Of a DNA stretch of 64,000 bases, positions 1,519 through 38,118 are shown in pieces (position 1 is the stretch's first letter; every line of letters begins with the position of its first letter). A program made the position numbers and the translations under genes. Under the pieces are notes generated by a model. It was given only the letters and a program-made list of their open reading frames with translations. It ran no database searches and was not told where the DNA came from. The DNA comes from an uncultured Prevotellaceae bacterium (lineage in GTDB: Bacteria > Bacteroidota > Bacteroidia > Bacteroidales > Bacteroidaceae): positions 1 to 64,000 of the forward strand of contig CAMZHV010000008.1 of NCBI GenBank assembly GCA_947307015.1. Direction: 5' to 3'.

Positions 1519-1704
1519 TTATTCGAACAAGTCTCCGCCGAAGAGATCACCTTTGACATCAGCTTCGGTGGGTGTTTCGCCATCGCCAATTTCAATAACA
1601 TCATCGCTACCATTAACGTTAATGCTGGTGATGCTGGCGGCGAGCATTTGTGTCGCAACCATGTGCGTCACATCCATTGCGGGAGAAATATATACCTTTT
1701 TCAT
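1519..1704 (-). CDS. Small (61 aa) conserved-leader peptide MKKVYISPAMDVTHMVATQMLA..., paralogue of 7210-7389
   Basis: Same N-terminus and ETPTEADVKGD tail as the second small ORF; each lies directly downstream of a giant secreted protein. Confidence 0.75.
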   Translation of the reverse strand: MKKVYISPAMDVTHMVATQMLAASITSINVNGSDDVIEIGDGETPTEADVKGDLFGGDLFE

Positions 1705-1821
1705 AGTCTTTTGAAGAACATAAATTTTACTTAAATCTAAACTTAAATCTTTCCTCCCCCGCCCTCAACTCCCCTCGCCCACGGGAGAGGGGCTGGGGGT
1801 GAGGCTGGGCGGGGTGGGTCT

Positions 1822-4800
1822 TTACTTCACCAGGACTTTCTTGCCGTTGACGATATAGATGCCCTTCTGAGCCTTGTTCACACGCTGACCGGCGATGTTG
1901 TAGATCACCTCATTGTCCATTGTCATTTGTCCATTGTCAATGGCTTCGATGCCAGTCTCAAGACCGTCGATGTAGAGCTTGACTTCGCCTACACCATTGG
2001 TCTTATCCTTGATATATGCGCGGAAGGCCTTCATGCTGGTAGTACCTTTGCTCTTGTAAATAGCGCCATTGCCAATGAAGTAGTCATTCTCTGCAACGGT
2101 CATTGGAGCATACGTACCCACGAAGTCGAAGTTCGTGCCAGTAACCACAGCTTCGCTGCTATTGAACATCACGTCGCCGAAGGTCTTAGCGTCTGTAGAA
2201 GCAGTAGCCTCGCCAATCAGCACGGGCACGTTAGCCTCGATGGTGTTGTCATCCTTCGTGTTGAAGTTGATGGTTGCTTTGTCAGGATCTTCGCTATTCT
2301 CAGAGTAGGTATATACCTTAGCGTTCTCGCCGAAGACAACTGCTACCTGATCAGCAGTGAGGTCGAACGGCAGACAAACCGTGTTGAAGCCATCAACAAC
2401 CTTGCGGGTCAGGGCGATGGCTTCGTAGAAGGTGCGGTTGATGGGCTCGAAAGTCGCACCTTCATTCAGAGCAAGTGTAGCAGATTCGGCTTTAACGAGG
2501 CTGACATCAGTGAGATGAGCATTACCATTCTGCTCAATGCTCAGGGTGTAATTGCCGGCTTCGCTAGTGGTGAAATAAGCCTTGGCTGTAACGAAATAGG
2601 TGTTACCTTCAGCAGCTGCGAACTCTGTTACGGGCAGACCTTCATTATCGCCGTTGACTACGCTAGCCTTCATCCAGTTCTGCCAGTCGCCGCCGTTCCT
2701 ACGATATTTGAAAGTTAGTTCGTAGGACTGGTTCTTGGCAAGAGGCATTGTGTAAACACCTTCATTACCATACTGCCATGCACCATTAGTGTTGTAGTAC
2801 CAAGCCGTCGTCGTTCCATCAGCAACGCCATTAGCTTCGGCTGTGAGACCCGTAATCTGCTGGCCCCAGCCGTTGTTGCTGCGGCTCCATCCCTGCGGAT
2901 TAGTTCCATTCGCAATAGCAAAATCACCATTGTAGATGGCATCCATGTCACCGTCATTAGCGGTCCAAGTGGCATCATTAAGAGCTTCAGTTGCAGCTGC
3001 AACATCAGTCTTAAAGTTTGTCAGTTCAGCCGTCTGGTTGATGGCCTTGGCAGCAGCGAGAGCCTCAAGGGCTGCTACATTATTATACGGTGCATACTGA
3101 CTATTCTCGAAGCCGAGTGTTTTAGCCTCGGCTGCTTCAATGGCGCCGTTGAGGGCCGCGTATTCAGTAGCGCCTGCATAAACGTCGTTGTTCAGTTCAA
3201 GACGCACGAGGCGGAAACGGTTGAAGGAAATCCACTGCTGATATTCCGTTGAAGTGGCAGCAATGGTGAGCGTGACAGGATGTCCATCGCTTTCGAATTC
3301 CAAAGAAACGTCATCCCAGCCATGACCGAACACGCCCTGATCTACGCCACTGCCATTCTTGGGAAGATCTACAGCATTCTCTCCGACAGAGAGTGTATAG
3401 CTTGTCAAAGCCTCAGAACCACGAGCGGTCACCGTCAAGAGATACTTACCAGCAGGAATCTCTATGCTACGTGACATAGTGATATTAACGCCGGCACTAG
3501 TTGACCAGCCGCCGTCATAATATTTGCCAGAAAGATTGCCAGCAGCATCTGTATATTTCTCCCAATCTCTGCTGTCGGTACCGATACCGCCAGTCCAACC
3601 AGTATTCGTGTCAGGATCTGCACCAGCTATTGCGTCTGCGCAGTCAACAGCTCCTTCAACCTTCTCAGCCATTGCATGGCTCTCGTAGTAGGCACGGATG
3701 GCAATTTTCATGGCTGCTGTTCTTGCACTTGCGTCAGCAGCATTGACAACCTCACCCTCACCAAAATAAGCATCACCAATTGCGGTGTATTTTTCTGTCG
3801 TAGCATAAATCAACTCTGGCACACCAGCGTTCCAAAGGTTTGCAAGACCATCGTATGCATCCTTGGCAGCGGTGAAAGTTGCGGTGGCCTCTTGCAATGC
3901 AGTAGTAGCTTCCTCATAGCCAGCAGCTGTCGTGGGTTCTGTCTTTTCAATTTCGGTTTGTAGAGCGGTACGCTCTTCGCCTGTGACACTGGCATATTCA
4001 GTGTTATCAATAGCATCTTCGGCTGCAGCCTTGGCTTCCTCCCAAAGTTGCTTTACGCCATCAAGCAAGGAAGCCCAGGCCAACTTCACGTGGCTGACAT
4101 AAAGGGCGGGAGTGACATCTGCAGATGGGTTGTTGTCGCCAGTACCATAACCGAAACTGATAGTCAGGGGTGCGGGTTCTTCCAATGTTACGTTAATCGT
4201 GTGAGTTGTCCAGCCACTCTTTGCTTGCATCCACTCCGTAGTTGAAGAGTAATTCTTTGTCCCACCAACCTCTACAAAGTTGTAATCAGCGTAGGTTAAA
4301 TTGGAAGTGTTGCCGTTGACATTCTCAACATCGTAGGTCAAGGTATAGACACCAGCGGGCAGGGCTACTGTAGTCTGGTTGTAGGAAGCATAGTTACCAC
4401 TCCAACGAGCTTCAAAGCCAAGGCAGTACTCTGTGGCGAGGTGAGTATCATCAACTGTGGCAGCAGAGAAACGAACATTGTAAGTACCAATCAGACCGTT
4501 GCCCTTATCATTGAATCCACTTGTGCTTGCTACAGTCCAACCATCCAGAGAAGCCAGGTCGGCGTCAGCCAAGGCAAGGGTCGCGTCTCCACCATTGGTG
4601 ATATGGCTGGCCATAGCGGTCTCCACGGCTGTATTCAGCGTGGCAGCTGCAGCGTTCACTTCGTCCTGAGTGGCGTTCTCATCATTATAAACAGCTTGAG
4701 CTGTTGTGATAGCCGTAGTGAGATCAGTGTTGTTTATACGAGAGTTTACGCTCTGTGCAGCTGCGATGGCAGTTTCTAGCACATCCCTAACGACAACGGC

Positions 4801-5472
4801 GGTAAACTCAATCTTCACGCATTCAATAAAGAGCATAGGGTTGGCACCCGAACCACTTCCTGTAGACTGATAGCCAATGCGGATCTGACCTTCGGTATCA
4901 TCAGTCAAGGTGAAAGTTACGGTCTGGTTGGCCCATTGACCGACTGTGGGATTCACGGCAACTGTCTGGTTTGTTCCGCTTGTGGGAAAGAAACCTGTAT
5001 AAGTGGTATTAGACTGTGTACCGCTCTGATTGTACATCGGAACGGTGATGGTATATTTACCTGCAGCCAGCGTGACGGTCTGATAGTAGTAACCACCACA
5101 GCCCCATACGCCGAAGAAGCCAAAGCAATTGCCTGTTGCTTCGCCAGCGGGGTTGGTAGCGGGAGCAGCCTTGCTGTTACCCTTGAGCTGAGTAGAAGAG
5201 CCATAACTAAAGATGCCTCCAGCCATACCAGAATTGGGGTAAGAGGCGTTGCTGTTATCACCAGCCGTTACCACCGATGTCCAGCCAGTGACAGTCTGGA
5301 AACCATAGGGAGAACCATCCTTACCATAACCATATAGATAGGTGGACGTAAGTGGTTCATCCTGTGAGAAGTCGGCATTCGTCAGATACGTGCTCGTCAC
5401 GTCTGTCTGTGCCCATGCCCCAACACTGAAACAGGCCAGTGCAGCGGCCAAGAAGAGTTTGATTTTCTTCAT
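1822..5472 (-). CDS. Large secreted surface protein with signal peptide, FIVAR-like helical segments, carbohydrate-binding-like domains and C-terminal sorting-type tail
   Basis: Signal peptide MKKIKLFLAAALACFSVGAWAQ (start trimmed to 5472); C-terminus IYNIAGQRVNKAQKGIYIVNGKKVLVK; C-terminal region paralogous to the 7511-12058 protein. Confidence 0.8.
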   Translation of the reverse strand: MKKIKLFLAAALACFSVGAWAQTDVTSTYLTNADFSQDEPLTSTYLYGYGKDGSPYGFQTVTGWTSVVTAGDNSNASYPNSGMAGGIFSYGSSTQLKGNSKAAPATNPAGEATGNCFGFFGVWGCGGYYYQTVTLAAGKYTITVPMYNQSGTQSNTTYTGFFPTSGTNQTVAVNPTVGQWANQTVTFTLTDDTEGQIRIGYQSTGSGSGANPMLFIECVKIEFTAVVVRDVLETAIAAAQSVNSRINNTDLTTAITTAQAVYNDENATQDEVNAAAATLNTAVETAMASHITNGGDATLALADADLASLDGWTVASTSGFNDKGNGLIGTYNVRFSAATVDDTHLATEYCLGFEARWSGNYASYNQTTVALPAGVYTLTYDVENVNGNTSNLTYADYNFVEVGGTKNYSSTTEWMQAKSGWTTHTINVTLEEPAPLTISFGYGTGDNNPSADVTPALYVSHVKLAWASLLDGVKQLWEEAKAAAEDAIDNTEYASVTGEERTALQTEIEKTEPTTAAGYEEATTALQEATATFTAAKDAYDGLANLWNAGVPELIYATTEKYTAIGDAYFGEGEVVNAADASARTAAMKIAIRAYYESHAMAEKVEGAVDCADAIAGADPDTNTGWTGGIGTDSRDWEKYTDAAGNLSGKYYDGGWSTSAGVNITMSRSIEIPAGKYLLTVTARGSEALTSYTLSVGENAVDLPKNGSGVDQGVFGHGWDDVSLEFESDGHPVTLTIAATSTEYQQWISFNRFRLVRLELNNDVYAGATEYAALNGAIEAAEAKTLGFENSQYAPYNNVAALEALAAAKAINQTAELTNFKTDVAAATEALNDATWTANDGDMDAIYNGDFAIANGTNPQGWSRSNNGWGQQITGLTAEANGVADGTTTAWYYNTNGAWQYGNEGVYTMPLAKNQSYELTFKYRRNGGDWQNWMKASVVNGDNEGLPVTEFAAAEGNTYFVTAKAYFTTSEAGNYTLSIEQNGNAHLTDVSLVKAESATLALNEGATFEPINRTFYEAIALTRKVVDGFNTVCLPFDLTADQVAVVFGENAKVYTYSENSEDPDKATINFNTKDDNTIEANVPVLIGEATASTDAKTFGDVMFNSSEAVVTGTNFDFVGTYAPMTVAENDYFIGNGAIYKSKGTTSMKAFRAYIKDKTNGVGEVKLYIDGLETGIEAIDNGQMTMDNEVIYNIAGQRVNKAQKGIYIVNGKKVLVK

Positions 5473-5547
5473 TTTGTTTTGTTTGTTAGTTAATATTATA
5501 TGAACGATATATCTATGATTGAGTGTGATATGCACACTTTGCGAGGG

Positions 5548-5555
5548 CAAAGATA
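5548..5555 (-). promoter_or_regulatory. -7 box TATCTTTG upstream of the giant secreted protein
   Basis: caaagata on +, 76 bp before the trimmed start. Confidence 0.55.
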
Positions 5556-5639
5556 CGGATAATATCTTGGCTACTAAATTCTTTTGTTGTTAATTCTCGT
5601 TAAAGACCGTTCTTTTGTGAGGAATTGCTGTAAAAATCG

Positions 5640-5647
5640 TATCTTTG
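5640..5647 (+). promoter_or_regulatory. -7 box TATCTTTG upstream of the RAYT-like gene
   Basis: TAnnTTTG match; overlaps the first ATG of the ORF-track entry, favouring the ATG at 5672. Confidence 0.6.
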
Positions 5648-5671
5648 CACAACAAAACGAAAGAAAAAAAG

Positions 5672-7123
5672 ATGAACGACCAACACCAACGTGCCCTATG
5701 GCACGACTACCGCGAGCCCGGCATCTACATGATCACCCTCGTAGCAGAGCGGCGCGGAACGCCCTTCGGACATCTGGAGCAGACGGAAGGCGATGGGCGG
5801 ACGATAGTGAGGCTCACGACCTTAGGGCAGGCCGTGGAACGCCAGCTGCACGAGCTGCCGCAGCATGCCGAGGGGCTGGCAGTGCTGCGCGCCGTGGTCA
5901 TGCCCGACCACATCCATGTCGTCGTGCAGGTGCAGAAGCCCCTGAAGCGGCACCTCGGCGTGCTCGTGAAGGGCTTCAAGTACGGCACCACGGTAGCCTA
6001 CCTCCGCGAGCTCGATGCCCGCTACGGCGGCACGCACCGCGTTCAGGGCTCACGCCCCTCACAGCAGCAACGCCAGCAGGAGAGCTCGACGGACAAACCG
6101 TCGACCACACAACCCCCTGCCATCAAGGAACCCCTGCCCACCTCCTCCCCCTCATCACCCATCACCCCCACCCCGTCCTCATCACCCATCATCCCCTCTC
6201 CGTCCTCATCACCCATCAGCCCCTCCATGTCCTCATCACCCATCACCCCCGTCCCGTCCTCATCACCCATCACCCCCGTCCCGTCCTCATCACCCATCAT
6301 CCCCACCCCGTCCTCCGTGGGTCCTGTGGGTCACGGTTCGTCCGCGACCACCTCTGCGACCTCCTCTGCGGCCTCCCTCGCCCCGCGCCTTGTCCCGCCC
6401 CTTTGGGCTAATGGCTACAACGACCGGATCCTCATGGGCCGCGGCCAGCTCTCCCGCATGCTGCATTACGTCAGCGACAACCCGCGGCGCGGGTGGATCA
6501 AGCGCCAGCACCGCGACCTCTTCTATAACAAGCAGATGCTGCGCATCCCCCTGACCATCGATCAAGCCCGCTGGCTGCTGCGCGAGGCACGCCGTTTGGG
6601 CGCGATGCAAGAGCTGCGGGGCGTGCTCCTCGTGGAGCAGCATTGCAGCGGCGACGAGTGGCAGCCCTTCCCTTGGTGGCAGCCCGGCATCCACGCCGCA
6701 GCGCATGCCGAGCTCCGCGCCGCCCTATATATGAAGATGGTGGGCAACCCGTTCCTGCTCGACGAAGCCCCCTTGGTGCCCGTCCGCATCTCCCGCAGCA
6801 CCACGCCGGGAGCCCTGGCACAGGAGAAGGCATCGCTGCTGGAGCGCTGCGAACGCGAAGGCGCCGTCATCATCACCCCCGCCGTGAGCCTGGGTGAGGA
6901 GGCGGTGATGCAAGCCACCCTCGATGCCGGCTATCGCGTCATCCGCCCTCAGGCCTCAGCCATGAGCGACCTATGGGCACCGCCGGAAGCCCTGCTTCAG
7001 CCCACAAGCCGCGGCCAGCTCCTCTTCCTCGCACCGTGGCCAGACCGCCCGCAGGGAGAGCATCCCCACAAGGGCATCTTCGAACTGCTCAACACCCTCT
7101 GCCGCCTGCTGGCTGAGCGTTGA
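5672..7123 (+). CDS. REP-associated tyrosine transposase-like protein (RAYT / Y1_Tnp, HUH) with low-complexity SP-rich insert and C-terminal extension
   Basis: VVMPDHIHVVVQV (HUH), later LVKGFKYGTTVAYLREL, and WANGYNDRILMGRGQLSRMLHYVSDNPRR typical of RAYT-like proteins. Confidence 0.8.
   Translation: MNDQHQRALWHDYREPGIYMITLVAERRGTPFGHLEQTEGDGRTIVRLTTLGQAVERQLHELPQHAEGLAVLRAVVMPDHIHVVVQVQKPLKRHLGVLVKGFKYGTTVAYLRELDARYGGTHRVQGSRPSQQQRQQESSTDKPSTTQPPAIKEPLPTSSPSSPITPTPSSSPIIPSPSSSPISPSMSSSPITPVPSSSPITPVPSSSPIIPTPSSVGPVGHGSSATTSATSSAASLAPRLVPPLWANGYNDRILMGRGQLSRMLHYVSDNPRRGWIKRQHRDLFYNKQMLRIPLTIDQARWLLREARRLGAMQELRGVLLVEQHCSGDEWQPFPWWQPGIHAAAHAELRAALYMKMVGNPFLLDEAPLVPVRISRSTTPGALAQEKASLLERCEREGAVIITPAVSLGEEAVMQATLDAGYRVIRPQASAMSDLWAPPEALLQPTSRGQLLFLAPWPDRPQGEHPHKGIFELLNTLCRLLAER
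6152..6313 (+). repeat. Six tandem copies of a 27-bp unit (tcatcacccatcacccccaccccgtcc) encoding SSPITPTPS-type nonapeptides
   Basis: Units at 6152, 6179, 6206, 6233, 6260, 6287. Confidence 0.95.
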
Positions 7124-7137
7124 AGCCCTCACACACA

Positions 7138-7170
7138 GAGAGCCCCGTGCAAGTGATGCACGGGGCTCTC
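7138..7170 (+). terminator. Stem-loop gagagccccgtgc-aagtgat-gcacggggctctc after the RAYT-like gene
   Basis: 13-bp perfect stem 15 bp after the stop codon. Confidence 0.75.
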
Positions 7171-7209
7171 ATCGTATTGCTGTTTACTGTCGTTCAGACA
7201 GCGAATGGA

Positions 7210-7389
7210 TTATTCGTCGAAGATGCTTTCGCCATAGAAGTTGCCTTTGACGTCGGCTTCGGAGGGCGTATCGCCAACGCCCATTCCGATACCAGAGTCA
7301 CCACCAGTGGTGAGGATGCTATTGGCGAGCATTTGAGTTGCAACCATGTAGGTCACATCCATTGCAGGAGAAATATATGTCTTTTTCAT
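7210..7389 (-). CDS. Small (~59 aa) conserved-leader peptide MKKTYISPAMDVTYMVATQMLA...
   Basis: Paralogue of 1519-1704; start trimmed to the conserved MKK. Confidence 0.75.
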   Translation of the reverse strand: MKKTYISPAMDVTYMVATQMLANSILTTGGDSGIGMGVGDTPSEADVKGNFYGESIFDE

Positions 7390-7510
7390 TTTGTTATTGA
7401 AGAACATAAATTTTACTTAAATCTAAACTTAATTCTTTCCTCCCCCGCCCTCAACTCCCCTCGCCCACGGGAGAGGGGCTGGGGGTGAGGCTGGGCAGGG
7501 TGGGTCTTTT

Positions 7511-10500
7511 TTACTTCACGAGAACCTTCTTGCCGTTGACAATGTAGAGACCCTTCTGAGCCTTGTTCACACGCTGACCGGCGATGTTGTAGATCACACC
7601 GCTCTCCGTAGCGTCGGCGTTGATGGCGTCGATAGCTGTCTCAAGGCCGTCGATGTAGAGCTTGACTTCGCCTCCATTGGACTTATCCTTATTAAAGATG
7701 TAAGCACGGAAGGCCTTCATGCTTGTAGCACCTGCGCTCTTGTAGATAGCGCCATTGCCGATAAAGTAGTCAAGAGCTGCAACTGTCATAGGAGCATAGA
7801 CACCGACGAAGTCGAAGTATGTGCCTTCAACCTTAACATCTTCAGTGGGAGCAACAACCTGTACCCCCTCGAAGGTCTGTGACGTGCTTTCGGCGGTAGC
7901 CTTCACGAGAACAGGAACATTTGCGGAGATGTTTCCAGCGATGATTTTATTAAAGTTGATGGTCACACTTTGTGCATCATCACCACTGTCAGAGAAAGCA
8001 TAGACCTCAGTACCAGAACCAAATGCGGTCTGTACCTGACTGGATGTAAGGTCGAAGGGCAGAACAACAGTATTGAAGTTAGCCTTCACGGTGCGGTTCA
8101 AGGTGACATTAGCCACATCGACATCTTCGATGGTGTTGGTTGTAGTCTCGTCGTAAGCTACAGCTGTAGCGATGTTGGTCTTGGAGAGGAGCTCTCCGTC
8201 GCAAACGCTGAACCACTGCATCACACCATTAGCTTCAGCAACCACGGTCATCGTAACTTCGGTCTCTTCTGTGAGGGTGAAAGGCAGGTAGTTCCATACC
8301 CATCCGCGGCCAGAACCGCCATTTGCAAATTCGCCGTCGTCGAAGCTGGCCACGCCAGCGGTGGTGATACCCTTACCGTTGTCGCCGAGGTTGGGGATAG
8401 GACCATCCATAGTGGCTGCGGAACAGGTAATCTTTGCTGTTGTGTTGGTTCCAGAGGCTGCGCGGGCAGCAACTTTGATGACATACTCACCGGCAGGCAA
8501 CTTGCAAATCTTCTCATAGTTAGCAGTGAACGTGGCACCACTTGTACTCCAACCGCCCACAGGTTGTTCATAATAGGTCATGGCTGTTCCACTCCAGTGC
8601 TGGCTAGTCAGTTGTTCAAAACTAACGTTAGTGTTACCATTCACAGAACCTGAACGTGTCCAAGTGCTAAATTCTCCAATCTTAGAAGTTGCGGAGTATT
8701 TATAAGCATTAGCAACGAAAGTGTATTCAGCAACCTTCAAGGTCTTGAATGCAGCCAGAGCCTCATCTGCGGAGGTGGGGACTTCAACAGTGATTGTGCT
8801 GCTGATAGCCTGAGCGATAGCCAGTTCGGAAGCGTACAGGTTGTAGTTGTAAGCAGCAGCAGTGAAGGCGGTCACTGCACTGTTCAGTTCCGTTGTGGCA
8901 GATTGGTATTCATCTACAGTGATGGGTTCAGCAGCAATAGCGCTTGAAAGGGCTGTCTTCTCAGAGCCTGTCACGTTTTGATAAGCTTGAGCTGCAAAAG
9001 CTTCCTCTGCAGCTTCCTTTGCGGCAAGATAATTTGCGTATGGCTCAACATAAGCAGCGGCATTGGCTGCAGCTGTTTCAAGAGCAGCAATTGCATCTTC
9101 GTACTCTGCGGCAGAAGACCAAGTCTTGTTGTTGGCTGTCTTCACCCCTTGCAAGGTTTGATATGCATCAGCAGGAATTGTTGATGCATCGATTGCATCA
9201 ACCAGTGCCACAGCGGCAGCGAGGGCTGCCTCGTAAGTCTGGATGCGCACGTTCTTGAATGCAACCCAGTTGTAGTTGCGATCTGCTGCAATGACAACAC
9301 CCAATTCAAGACGACCATTTTCATCAACGGTGGCACCAGTAGCCAAGGTTGCGTATATACCAGACATGTTGTTGTAGGTGAACGTATTACCATCTGTGGA
9401 GAGGTCAGTAACTGCGTTGTTCACGTAGAAGTTCGGACCATTGGGTGCTGTTGCATCAGCTTCATTGTATGAACGTACAAGGGCGGAAGCGCGATAGACC
9501 TCACCGGGCTCCAGACCTTCAAGGCGGTAATAAACTTTACCTGCGCCGAGGTATTCGCCCCTTCCAACCCAGTTCTCAATAAACGGGGTCACCATATTTG
9601 ACGGGTCGTTTCCAGGATTTCCTTCTTCAGACCAAGTGTTGACGTGGAAAGTCTGCTCATTTTCGCATACCCATCCATCAATGGAGTTGTCAGGTATAAT
9701 ACCAGCAGCAATGATTGCATAGCTTGCAATAGAAGTTTCGCACTTAGCTTTGGCTGCATTAAGAGCGGCAGTTGCTGCTTCAAGAGCTGTTTTACTTGTA
9801 ACATCTACATTGTCTTCATAAGCTGAAATCGTTGAGCTCAATGCAGTACGCAAAGAAGCTGCCATCCGATCTTCTTTGGCCACAGTCGTCTTGGCAGCTT
9901 CGAGAGCTGTGTTATATGTAGCCACGACAGCATTTATAGCCTGCAAGTCAGCGGTTGCACCATGAACGGCATCAATTGCGGCCTGATATTCGGCAGAATT
10001 GTTCCAAGTTTTATTGTTCTCATCAACAATAGCCTTATAAATTGCATAATTTGCAGCTGCAGAGCTGGCTTCCAGGGCCTCGAACTCTGTAACGGCTTCA
10101 GCAAGAGCATCTGCAAATACGGAGAGGTCAATGCCACCTGCGAAATAGACCTTGAAGTTATCGGCAGAGAGCCAGTTGGCATTCGTGTTGTTAGCTTCGA
10201 GACCGAAAGTAACGGAACCTACGCCACCGTGTACAAATTCTACGGTATAGTGGTTGATGTATAGGCGTACATTGCTGATAGCTTTGGTTTCTTTCTTCAA
10301 GCTGGACTGCACATAGAGGTTTGCACCTGTGATGTCATCGGCACCGGCGGGGTCGTGGCAGACAGAAGCATCACACTCTAAAACGTAGGTACCTTCGGGC
10401 AGACTGCTGACGGTTTGTGCAATTACACCGCTGCCCAACTGACTGGGATGCCATGCTTCAATGAAGTTGGTGATAGCCAAACCTGATTCAGGGTTGGTGT

Positions 10501-12058
10501 CGGTACGATTCTGCTGACCGCAGTTTTGTCCTGTGATGGTGATAGTCCATCCGGGAGGCAGAACGCCACTAGCTGTGGGAACCTCAAAGTCAGGATTGGT
10601 CAGATAGATGTTGGTGATGTCAAAACGCTTCCCTTCATTAACGGTAACAGAAGAAAGGAATGTAGCAGCAGCAGCTTGAATTTGTGGTTTTGCAGTCTCA
10701 ATGGCAGCATTTAGGGCCTCAAGCGTAGTCGTGGCCTGTATCGTGGCATCGATAGCAGATAAGTCAATGGTGGCATCTCCTGTGAAAATCGAAGCATCAT
10801 CGTCAAGTGCATCCACGGATGACTTAAAGGCTAAATAACCAGCGTATGCACTTTGCAAAGCTTTGGCTGCATTAACACGATTAGCCAATTCTGTAGAGGC
10901 TTCGCTAATTGCATCTTCTGTGTTCAAACTTGCAACATCAATGCCATCGGCGTAGTTCTTAGCGGCATTGTAAGCTGCAGCGGTCGTTGTACCTTCAAGG
11001 TCAGGAACGGCATCAATCTGAGCCTGTAGGGCTTCCTTTAATGCAGAAAGGTCAACACCTTTATAAGTAAGCTTGAAGTTATCCCAAACACACCATGTGT
11101 CGGTGCGAGTACCGCGCACACCAATAGTCAGTGAACCATTGGTTACAACAACGCGGATTGGACCTACAACATACTTTCCAGCAGTGAAACTTGTGGAAAC
11201 CCCACTCATTGAGCTTTCACCCTCTGTCATGGCTGTGAAAGGAGTGCTCTGGTCACCAGCATAAACTACTGGAAGATTAGCACCAGTAACGGTATATTCA
11301 GTGACAGTAGCCTGTGCAGTCAACTCATAAATACCATTGGGAACAGTGATTGTCTGACTCAAAGTGAAAGCGGCACGCCAAGACTCAGCATTGGGATTGG
11401 TAACTTCACCACCGCAGGCATTGTAGTTATTGGATACCATTGTCCAGGAATCATTCTTTAAGATAGCGGGGAAACTGAAATTGGCATTCACGATAAGGGA
11501 TGTAGCATCCACGGGATTGGCCTCAGAAGCTGCATCCATACCAATGGGCTGTGCGGGAATAGCCATCAGCTTCCATTGAGCACCTGCGATTGTACCATCT
11601 GTGCCAGGAGTAACAATGGTGCCATCAACTCCAGCGGTGAGATAGACATTAGCGCCGCCGCCATGATTGTCTTTTGACATGATGGTATATACAGGGCCAT
11701 TGTCAGTACCTACCTGAGTGAATGTCCAGGTAGAGTTCTTGTTTGCAGACTGGTCAGTATAGATAGTTCCACCGTTCAGGTGTTCAAGACCTTTTGCATC
11801 ACCATTGATGTCGGTGCGAAGCTTGAAATCGGAGCCAACGGCCTCGATTTTAACTGCAATACCATTGCCTGCAGTAGTAGCAGTTGTGATACTGGCCTGG
11901 GTACCCCAGCCATTACCTCTTGTAAGATACTGGCCTGTACCGACGTTGTAGAGCATGTAGTTACCTGCTCCAACCTCGGAAGCTGTCCACGACTGAGCCT
12001 GTACGCCCATCGTGACCATTGCCGCGATAGCGGCCAAGAAGAGTTTGATTTTCTTCAT
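7511..12058 (-). CDS. Giant secreted surface protein (1515 aa), FIVAR-like/CBM-like segments, C-terminal sorting-type tail
   Basis: MKKIKLFLAAIAAMVTMGVQAQ signal peptide; repeated 'YxxAKxxAEEAFAAQAYQNVTGSEKTALSSAI' type helical segments; C-term IYNIAGQRVNKAQKGLYIVNGKKVLVK. Confidence 0.8.
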   Translation of the reverse strand: MKKIKLFLAAIAAMVTMGVQAQSWTASEVGAGNYMLYNVGTGQYLTRGNGWGTQASITTATTAGNGIAVKIEAVGSDFKLRTDINGDAKGLEHLNGGTIYTDQSANKNSTWTFTQVGTDNGPVYTIMSKDNHGGGANVYLTAGVDGTIVTPGTDGTIAGAQWKLMAIPAQPIGMDAASEANPVDATSLIVNANFSFPAILKNDSWTMVSNNYNACGGEVTNPNAESWRAAFTLSQTITVPNGIYELTAQATVTEYTVTGANLPVVYAGDQSTPFTAMTEGESSMSGVSTSFTAGKYVVGPIRVVVTNGSLTIGVRGTRTDTWCVWDNFKLTYKGVDLSALKEALQAQIDAVPDLEGTTTAAAYNAAKNYADGIDVASLNTEDAISEASTELANRVNAAKALQSAYAGYLAFKSSVDALDDDASIFTGDATIDLSAIDATIQATTTLEALNAAIETAKPQIQAAAATFLSSVTVNEGKRFDITNIYLTNPDFEVPTASGVLPPGWTITITGQNCGQQNRTDTNPESGLAITNFIEAWHPSQLGSGVIAQTVSSLPEGTYVLECDASVCHDPAGADDITGANLYVQSSLKKETKAISNVRLYINHYTVEFVHGGVGSVTFGLEANNTNANWLSADNFKVYFAGGIDLSVFADALAEAVTEFEALEASSAAANYAIYKAIVDENNKTWNNSAEYQAAIDAVHGATADLQAINAVVATYNTALEAAKTTVAKEDRMAASLRTALSSTISAYEDNVDVTSKTALEAATAALNAAKAKCETSIASYAIIAAGIIPDNSIDGWVCENEQTFHVNTWSEEGNPGNDPSNMVTPFIENWVGRGEYLGAGKVYYRLEGLEPGEVYRASALVRSYNEADATAPNGPNFYVNNAVTDLSTDGNTFTYNNMSGIYATLATGATVDENGRLELGVVIAADRNYNWVAFKNVRIQTYEAALAAAVALVDAIDASTIPADAYQTLQGVKTANNKTWSSAAEYEDAIAALETAAANAAAYVEPYANYLAAKEAAEEAFAAQAYQNVTGSEKTALSSAIAAEPITVDEYQSATTELNSAVTAFTAAAYNYNLYASELAIAQAISSTITVEVPTSADEALAAFKTLKVAEYTFVANAYKYSATSKIGEFSTWTRSGSVNGNTNVSFEQLTSQHWSGTAMTYYEQPVGGWSTSGATFTANYEKICKLPAGEYVIKVAARAASGTNTTAKITCSAATMDGPIPNLGDNGKGITTAGVASFDDGEFANGGSGRGWVWNYLPFTLTEETEVTMTVVAEANGVMQWFSVCDGELLSKTNIATAVAYDETTTNTIEDVDVANVTLNRTVKANFNTVVLPFDLTSSQVQTAFGSGTEVYAFSDSGDDAQSVTINFNKIIAGNISANVPVLVKATAESTSQTFEGVQVVAPTEDVKVEGTYFDFVGVYAPMTVAALDYFIGNGAIYKSAGATSMKAFRAYIFNKDKSNGGEVKLYIDGLETAIDAINADATESGVIYNIAGQRVNKAQKGLYIVNGKKVLVK

Positions 12059-25522: not shown

Positions 25523-26755
25523 TCCCGGCATCTTGCCGTCCATCGCATCAATGAGGACGCGGAGGAGGTCATCGGTGGGACGTGAGAGTTTCATGTTGCC
25601 TACCATGGTCATGGGCTGACGCTTGCCTGTTGCTATCTCATCGAGGCGCTGGCGGAGGAGAGCTTTCATCTCTTCCTTACCCTTAGCATCGGCATCGGGA
25701 CCTGAGAAGGGACGCACCCAGCGAGCCAACTGCATGTCGTCGGCATCGAGTGCTGGATTGGCGAGGTACTGCTTGACATAAGCGATGTAGGCTTTGAAGT
25801 CCTTCTGCTTTTCAGCTAACGTGATGAGTGTGGTGAGACGGTAGTGATCGGCATTGGCGATGTTGAGCTGATCGAGGAGTGCGCTAAAGCGGTCGTAAGA
25901 TTGTTGGTCGAGCGTAGCCGTACCGTCAGCCTCGTTGATGAGTTGTCGCTGGTAGCCGTTGAGGACGTTCTGAATTTTCATTTCTACAGGCATGGCACCA
26001 ATGGCTTCCTTGAGCGCCTCGGGATGCTGGGCAGTGTAGATGAAAGATTTGGCAAAGGGATTGGTTATGTTGCGGAAGAAGATCATGCGGAGTGTGGAGT
26101 CGGCAGCGAAAGATTCCTCTTTGCCGTCGAGGATTGCCTCGGCGACGGTGTTGGCCTCATCGCCTTTGTATGCTGCTGTGAGTGAGGCGAGATAATCCTG
26201 CAAGAACTTGGGGTTGCGTTCGCCGTTGTCAAAGCGTGCCTTGAAAGCCGCAGAAGCGTCATCCTTGCCCTTCTCCTCGAGCACTTTGAGGAAGTCGCCA
26301 GCAGCATGATAGCCGAGGAAACGGCTGATCTCCTGTGCGTCGGCGTTGAAGATAACGAAGGTGGGGTAGGCCTGAATCTGTAGCTTCTTGGCTAAGGGAG
26401 CTCCGTAGGCACTTTCCATGTCAATCTTGATATTGACAAACTTGGGGTTCATGACCGCACCGACCTCAGCCAGTGGGAACACCTCCTTGGACATCTTCTT
26501 GCAGGGGCCGCACCACTGGGTATAGCAGTCGAGGAAGATGAGCTTGTTCTCAGCCTTCGCCTTGACAGAAGCTTGTTCGAGGGTCGTGCCATCGGGCTCG
26601 AAGACAACCTGTGAATAGGCAAAGAGCGGGAGCATAAAGAGCAACAGAACCACCCCCCTGCTCATTCCAAGCCTCACCCCTAACCCCTCTCCAAAGGGCG
26701 AGGGGAACTTTTGGGAGGGAGTAAAATGTTTTGCAAATAGTTTTCTCATAATCAA
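25517..26755 (-). CDS. Thioredoxin-family secreted protein
   Basis: KLIFLDCYTQWCGPCKKMSKEVF (CxxC active site). Confidence 0.8.
   Translation of the reverse strand: MIMRKLFAKHFTPSQKFPSPFGEGLGVRLGMSRGVVLLLFMLPLFAYSQVVFEPDGTTLEQASVKAKAENKLIFLDCYTQWCGPCKKMSKEVFPLAEVGAVMNPKFVNIKIDMESAYGAPLAKKLQIQAYPTFVIFNADAQEISRFLGYHAAGDFLKVLEEKGKDDASAAFKARFDNGERNPKFLQDYLASLTAAYKGDEANTVAEAILDGKEESFAADSTLRMIFFRNITNPFAKSFIYTAQHPEALKEAIGAMPVEMKIQNVLNGYQRQLINEADGTATLDQQSYDRFSALLDQLNIANADHYRLTTLITLAEKQKDFKAYIAYVKQYLANPALDADDMQLARWVRPFSGPDADAKGKEEMKALLRQRLDEIATGKRQPMTMVGNMKLSRPTDDLLRVLIDAMDGKMPGQ
26669..26707. repeat. GC-rich repeat in the thioredoxin-family gene 5' region (KFPSPFGEGLGVRLG)
   Basis: aagcctcacccctaacccctctccaaagggcgagggga. 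Confidence 0.75.
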
Positions 26756-37191: not shown

Positions 37192-38118
37192 TCAGTTCTC
37201 ACAATTACGGAGGGAGGTGACGGTGGCGAGGATCTCGCCGTCAATGGCATCGGCAGTAGTGATGCTGACTTCACGTTGCCCTGTGACGAACTTACCTGTG
37301 AGAGGATTGCGGATATGGCACCGCTCGGCTGTGGCGTTGCCTGAGGTGGTGAGGCAGTGATTAGGGGGAATGTCGGAAGGGTTGTGGCCGAGTGAGAGGA
37401 TGGAACTGTTGCCGAGGTTGATGAGGGCGTCTGTAATACCAAGGGTGTGGAGAAGTGTGCGAAGGCGTTCGAGGGCATAGCCTTTTAATATGCCAGATAG
37501 ATCCAAAATTATGGAAGAAAACTCTCCCCCCGCCCTCCCAAGCCTCACCCCCGCCCCCTCTCCCATGGGAGAGGGAAGTGGCTGCGCATAGTTCTCAAGC
37601 TGAAATGCAAGTCTCCCCTGATCGGGAGATTTAGAGGGGTCTTCTAATAGCGTTATGCTGTTGATGAGGCCTGGGTAGAAGTCGGGGGAGTTGACTGTGA
37701 TGTCAAAGAGGCCATCGGTGTCGCGGTTGGCTTGCAGGCAGCGGGCGAGGAGGGAGTAGAGGGCAGGACTAATTGGCACGGGAGCGAAGTCGGCAGGTGA
37801 ACCGCCGACAACAGAACCTGGAGCGGGTGAATTATTGAGAGAAAAACTCAGGGAGGCGTTAGCGGCACGGACGGCACGGGAGAGTTCGCTGTCGGGATCG
37901 AAGCGGTTGCCTAACTTTTCCACGGCGCTAAGCTCAGCGCGCATGGCCGCTTCTACCGTCTCGAACTCGGCTTCGGAGTGAGAGCCAAGGAGGAGGAGAT
38001 CGACGCGGGTGTGTAGGGCTTCAAACCAGGCGTAGTAGCGGTTTTGATGCGGGGCAGAATGGAAGAGGTGAGGCATGAAGGAAAAGCCTCGCGGAGATGC
38101 GCGAGGCACGGTTGGCAT
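37192..38118 (-). CDS. ApbE-like FAD:protein FMN transferase
   Basis: MRAELSAVEKLGNRFDPDSELSR; LDLSGILKGYALERLR; ALINLGNSSILSLGH. Confidence 0.78.
   Translation of the reverse strand: MPTVPRASPRGFSFMPHLFHSAPHQNRYYAWFEALHTRVDLLLLGSHSEAEFETVEAAMRAELSAVEKLGNRFDPDSELSRAVRAANASLSFSLNNSPAPGSVVGGSPADFAPVPISPALYSLLARCLQANRDTDGLFDITVNSPDFYPGLINSITLLEDPSKSPDQGRLAFQLENYAQPLPSPMGEGAGVRLGRAGGEFSSIILDLSGILKGYALERLRTLLHTLGITDALINLGNSSILSLGHNPSDIPPNHCLTTSGNATAERCHIRNPLTGKFVTGQREVSITTADAIDGEILATVTSLRNCEN
37521..37643. repeat. GC-rich palindromic repeats inside the apbE-like gene
   Basis: actctccccccgccctcccaagcctcacccccgccccctctcccatgggagaggg at 37521-37578 and gtctcccctgatcgggagatttagaggggtcttc at 37609-37643. 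Confidence 0.8.

Follow-up and report, generated by a model that had tools for sequence, protein, structure and literature searches.

The small genes that follow two giant genes in the window (the whole 64,000-nucleotide stretch that was analyzed, from an uncultured Prevotellaceae bacterium) belong to an unnamed, widespread family of peptides in gut and rumen bacteria, whose members nearly always stand directly behind a gene with a short type IX secretion system (T9SS) tail. We consider it probable that these ~60-aa peptides are dispersed precursors, matured in trans by an unlinked set of genes for an RRE (RiPP recognition element), a kinase and a peptidase. A fuller picture is quite possible, although we hold it more tentatively: a trans-matured family with up to dozens of members per genome, each paired with a large surface protein gene, where one RRE/HprK-like/S24-S26-like set would yield phosphorylated acidic peptides acting on or with the cell surface.

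Paired cargo and peptide genes

Two units, each with a giant gene and a gene for a peptide of about 60 residues, were found on the same strand (5472-1519 and 12058-7210), as originally predicted. The features of this region are as follows:

1519..1704, minus strand: peptide gene 2, 61 aa, MKKVYISPAMDVTHMVATQMLAAS... (from sequence; profile match)
1750..1806, minus strand: REP-like hairpin in spacer 2 (unit with protein 2), a dispersed repeat, boundaries approximate
1822..5472, minus strand: large secreted protein 2, 1216 aa (ORF; predicted T9SS cargo with short C-terminal signal)
1825..1959, minus strand: final 45 aa of protein 2, approximately delimited, forming the short C-terminal signal of T9SS type (shares motifs B, D and E with the signal described in PMC11969387)
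5645..7123, plus strand: RAYT-like (REP-associated Y1 transposase-like) ORF between the units (HIH motif visible in the sequence)
7210..7389, minus strand: peptide gene 1, 59 aa, MKKTYISPAMDVTYMVATQMLANS... (from sequence; MKK start at 7389)
7436..7492, minus strand: REP-like hairpin in spacer 1 (unit with protein 1), identical to the spacer 2 hairpin over 57 bp
7511..12058, minus strand: large secreted protein 1, 1515 aa (ORF; predicted T9SS cargo with short C-terminal signal)
7514..7648, minus strand: final 45 aa of protein 1, approximately delimited, forming the short C-terminal signal of T9SS type (alignment)

Both giants carry a signal-like N-terminal stretch and a near-identical C-terminal tail, in line with the claim that they are secreted and share an ending. 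Protein 1 gives a partial DUF5013 match above the cut-off, and protein 2 a weak one below it. The original prediction had called the arrangement a duplicated cassette, which holds insofar as there are two units, but not as a merely local duplication, as the peptide profile, for which peptide gene 1 is the best match in the genome, finds 10 copies there (E up to 0.01) at dispersed loci. Cargo and peptide units also recur in relatives.

For the pairing count, loci were selected by peptide and not by tail, and the tail model was built on loci L033-L061 and then applied to the other loci, with some genomes in both sets. Of 74 peptides, 71 are immediately preceded by a same-strand gene that bears the tail, as compared to 27 of 719 other genes. 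A link to large surface proteins had been set beforehand as a test of the prediction, and it was found even though the peptides are scattered. The three exceptions comprise one spurious ORF, a locus where the peptide follows a protein without the tail (L075) and a locus where the tail is replaced (L081). In the latter (14593-10829, in the relative G083), the type IX tail of the cargo has given way to SPLTPPLCGRGKGD, which looks like a translated REP repeat, and the downstream peptide gene is retained. The proteins upstream of peptides in the source genome are diverse, ranging from 396 to 1572 aa. As the peptide gene directly follows the cargo gene, co-transcription of the two is probable, and the peptide, once processed, probably acts together with or on its paired T9SS cargo surface protein.

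The assignment of both giants as predicted T9SS cargo is based on sequence and considers three features, namely a Sec signal, a short C-terminal domain (CTD) and the translocon. A hydrophobic N-terminal stretch is present in 88 of 106 tail genes, short-CTD motifs are found in both giants, and SprA, the T9SS component that was searched, has a match above the cut-off in the source genome. In a model of the C-terminal 225 aa of protein 2, a linker modeled at low confidence separates a globular domain from a small tail of three strands; a Foldseek search with this model gave no significant match. The model of the standard long T9SS tail (TIGR04183) was considered and rejected, with 19 matches in the source genome and, among those listed, none at peptide loci. 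It does not detect the two giants of the window, a discrepancy that is resolved by the short type IX CTD published for Prevotella intermedia (PMC11969387). The available text of that paper deals with cargo proteins and their C-terminal glycosylation and, in that part, does not mention downstream peptides. The present tails are similar to this CTD in motifs B, D (GxY or GxN, then I) and E and in being three-stranded, with SprA likewise encoded in the source genome, whereas the peptide genes downstream of the cargo are, as far as that text extends, a feature of the present units.

A similar C-terminal tail, in this case without a downstream peptide, is also seen in a 1529-aa rhamnogalacturonan lyase with PATR repeats (RGL11_C, RGI_lyase; 16900-12311, minus strand). 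Elsewhere in the window, a leucine-rich-repeat-like protein (47768-46239, minus strand) is made of near-identical tandem units LTSVTIPNSVTSIGxxAFxxC.

The peptide family and its candidate maturation set

The window peptides gave no significant Pfam or NCBIfam match. The peptide profile, on the other hand, has hits in 136 of 139 congeners (at most 34 in any one genome) and, across an even sample of the family, in 128 of 199 genomes, which represent 17 of 22 genera. In an order-level sample, only 11 of 295 genomes have a match, those outside the genus being few and mostly weak. Among 43 diverse peptides, M1, K2, Y5 and P8 are invariant and Ser24 is found in more than 90%. The leader pattern MKKxYxxP...MLAxS carries YxxP, and the five most conserved positions all lie in the leader. 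Across 17 disjoint pairs, pN/pS is 0.35 and, as synonymous changes thus outnumber nonsynonymous ones, the peptide genes are taken to be truly coding. The core was predicted to be variable; strictly speaking it is not, as ADVKGNxxGExIF is kept in the C-terminal half among close relatives and pN/pS is 0.39 for this part, as compared to 0.30 for residues 1-24. Acidic in character (median net charge -7), the core is rich in Gly, Asp and Glu and nearly free of Cys. The peptide is predicted to be unstructured, and most members lack the Sec-like hydrophobic stretch that is present in most cargo proteins.

YxxP is a characterized RRE-binding motif (PMC12710340). Two of the features expected of an RRE-dependent precursor, namely a leader with this motif and an RRE in the same genome, are seen at the sequence level. 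A PqqD-family RRE is found in 12 of 12 congeners tested and, in most, adjoins genes for an HprK-like kinase and a peptidase. In the source genome, the RRE (C5:79133-79399) comes directly after the S24/S26-like peptidase and the HprK-like kinase, unlinked to the window peptides; no maturation enzyme is adjacent to the window units, as had been noted. Within the genus, G097 is an exception: here a cargo and peptide pair is located upstream of the kinase gene, at a distance of ~1.6 kb that includes other genes. Because of this general lack of linkage, searches for precursors beside the enzymes would miss these peptides.

The closest PDB match of the PqqD-type RRE is the lasso B1 protein TfuB1. 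For the kinase, the nearest curated families are HprK-related kinase A (TIGR04352) and SynChlorMet ScmC (TIGR04249), with scores that nonetheless fall far below both curated cut-offs (TIGR04352 matches 9 of 9 members at this level); in the alignment, the P-loop can be seen, along with further invariant residues. Peptidase_S24 matches 8 of 8 peptidase members and an archaeal-type signal peptidase model 7 of 8, all weakly. Ser52, His90 and Asp105 are invariant and resemble a Ser-His-Asp arrangement, which we take to be comparable to that of SipW-type enzymes, and the AxS at the leader end fits a signal-peptidase-like -3/-1 pattern. These assignments of kinase and peptidase should be considered weak. 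PDB sequence searches with both profiles gave nothing useful, and literature searches found no paper on HPr-rel-A (TIGR04352) or SynChlorMet (TIGR04249), nothing on lasso, kinase or signal peptidase in Bacteroidota and no lead on small proteins.

Outside this genus, homologs of the RRE/HprK-like set were found in the vicinity of same-leader peptides, most of which abut a large surface protein (L205, L207, L210, L211, L213, L216, L217, L220 and L151). A nucleotidyltransferase is a frequent companion of these sets, and an ABC transporter or exopolysaccharide locus an occasional one; at L208, the peptide terminates an HprK/S24-like/RRE/nucleotidyltransferase/ABC set. When 1516 small ORFs from such neighborhoods were ranked by a 25-position leader profile, the peptides of L205, L210, L217 and L151 fell within the top five, while those of L208, L213 and L207 scored poorly and were recognized by motif.

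Two further arrangements were observed. At L205, L207, L213, L217 and L220, the RRE, nucleotidyltransferase and HprK-like genes lie inside apparent exopolysaccharide loci, with the same-leader peptide and the large protein downstream. L140 and L144 (genomes G043 and G055) represent a second type of RRE locus, with an ABC transporter, HprK-like kinase, S24-like protein and C1-type peptidase.

Peptide and kinase also co-occur. Among the 199 family genomes, 126 have both, 2 only the peptide, 34 only the kinase and 37 neither, although the Fisher value for these counts ignores phylogeny; by genus, the numbers are 17, 0, 2 and 3, respectively (p 0.0065). In three genomes of the genus (G013, G043 and G055), which may be one clade, no peptide was detected; these, the only such cases, are also without the type-1 kinase and have the second type only. 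One of them, G043, has at L140 a same-leader small ORF below profile detection, just upstream of a 680-aa protein. One other genus (g192) presents a strong kinase match and no detected peptide, a case that our model leaves unexplained.

These observations should be weighed against another explanation, according to which the peptide stays unmodified and serves the T9SS cargo as a small partner, for example as an assembly factor, secretion chaperone or regulator, with YxxP and the RRE set being unrelated to it. The tight pairing with cargo genes agrees with such a role, as do the unlinked position of the RRE-set enzymes in this genus and the conservation of the C-terminal half. Nonetheless, we regard it as rather unlikely, given the same-leader peptides near RRE/HprK-like sets in other genera, the co-occurrence of peptide and kinase, the predicted lack of structure and the confinement of the five most conserved positions to the leader.

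According to the trans-maturation model that we prefer, one chromosomal set would serve the ~10 precursor loci of the genome (up to 34 matches in relatives). The stand-alone PqqD-family RRE would bind the YxxP leader, the HprK-like kinase probably phosphorylates the precursor, with the near-invariant Ser24 as candidate site, and the small S24/S26-like peptidase probably cuts the leader off near MLAxS, leaving an acidic core of ~35 residues that would then be exported; for this genus, no exporter was identified. The original idea of RiPP-like precursors is partly supported: the YxxP leader, the RRE/HprK-like/S24-S26-like set and the homologous sets near same-leader peptides speak for it independently, but the hairpin as part of the unit (see below) and a strictly variable core are not supported. 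If true, the peptides would represent a substrate family for a set of enzymes found in most Bacteroidaceae genera sampled and would tie RiPP-style processing to surface protein display, and the function of a common, unnamed small-gene family becomes directly testable.

Comparison with lasso and other RiPP systems

In the bsf lasso system of Bradymonas sediminis, an HprK-like kinase, assisted by the RRE, phosphorylates Ser3 of the BsfA core (PMC10368454). From the leader positions stated there, we calculated a distance of 19 residues from the YxxP tyrosine to this serine. In the present peptides, Tyr5 and Ser24 are the same distance apart, and 68 of 77 members have a serine at +19 from the leader tyrosine (the second-type peptide of L151 has a threonine there); this argument should be read as the coincidence of one number. 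The present system is similar to bsf in its YxxP leader, its discrete RRE, the presence of an HprK-like kinase, which in bsf acts on the precursor with the help of the RRE, the nucleotidyltransferase in the cluster and the candidate serine at the same calculated distance. It differs in that an S24/S26-like peptidase is found near the RRE, where no lasso cyclase or transglutaminase-type B2 protease was recognized, and in that the precursors are dispersed, paired with surface protein genes and without a lasso ring acceptor.

That we are dealing with genuine lasso peptides, or with some other secreted RiPP of the bacteriocin type whose remaining enzymes were missed, nonetheless had to be considered, given the YxxP leader, an RRE nearest to TfuB1 in the PDB, an HprK-like kinase and a nucleotidyltransferase, both of which also occur in lasso clusters, and weak lasso_cyano matches in 7 of 31 peptides. 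We find this very improbable. In the RRE neighborhoods inspected, neither an Asn synthetase-like cyclase nor a B2 protease was recognized by eye; in the alignments, no Asp or Glu is conserved at core positions 7-9, whether the core starts at residue 22 or 25; and the constant pairing with surface proteins also argues against it. As this core feature fails, the peptides are not filed as lasso peptides, even though leader, RRE and kinase are lasso-like. The RiPP clusters described in Bacteroidales (PMC10352776) share the bacterial order and the leader-core logic of the precursor but have GG leaders and an in-cluster peptidase-containing transporter (PCAT), whereas here the leader is of the YxxP type and, in this genus, the enzyme genes lie apart from the precursors.

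Spacer hairpins and the RAYT-like ORF

The two spacers were said to be nearly identical and to contain a hairpin as part of the unit. The former is correct (98% identity over 111 bp), while the latter has to be abandoned, as 47 genomic matches to the spacer DNA were found, most limited to the GC-rich hairpin part, and a REP-type repeat is present in only 7 of 74 homologous spacers. The hairpin is therefore ruled out as a cassette element and considered a dispersed REP-like repeat. Beyond the hairpin part, only the two window copies match each other in the genome, which points to their recent duplication or conversion. The stable GC-rich hairpin in both window spacers could also be read as a non-coding or regulatory 3' element controlling the mRNA of the large gene, with the small ORF as a by-product. 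This is extremely improbable, considering that the hairpin is such a repeat, carried by few homologous spacers, and that purifying selection acts on the peptide, which is conserved across genera.

The RAYT-like ORF between the units gave no Pfam match; a similar ORF at L080 matches Y1_Tnp at 2.1e-4, just below the cut-off. Similar ORFs adjoin a cargo and peptide pair in L080, L081 and L086. We consider this ORF a neighbor, outside the peptide system. It contains a proline/serine-rich tandem repeat, SSPITPxPS.

REP-like repeats are also found within two other ORFs of the window: at 26670-26706, around residue 14 of ORF 26749-25517 and beside a signal-like stretch, and at 37541-37579, around residue 180 of ORF 38118-37192. 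Several further ORFs of the window have related strings (PSLxGRxGGES and similar) near their N-termini, which suggests in-frame insertions of the repeat.
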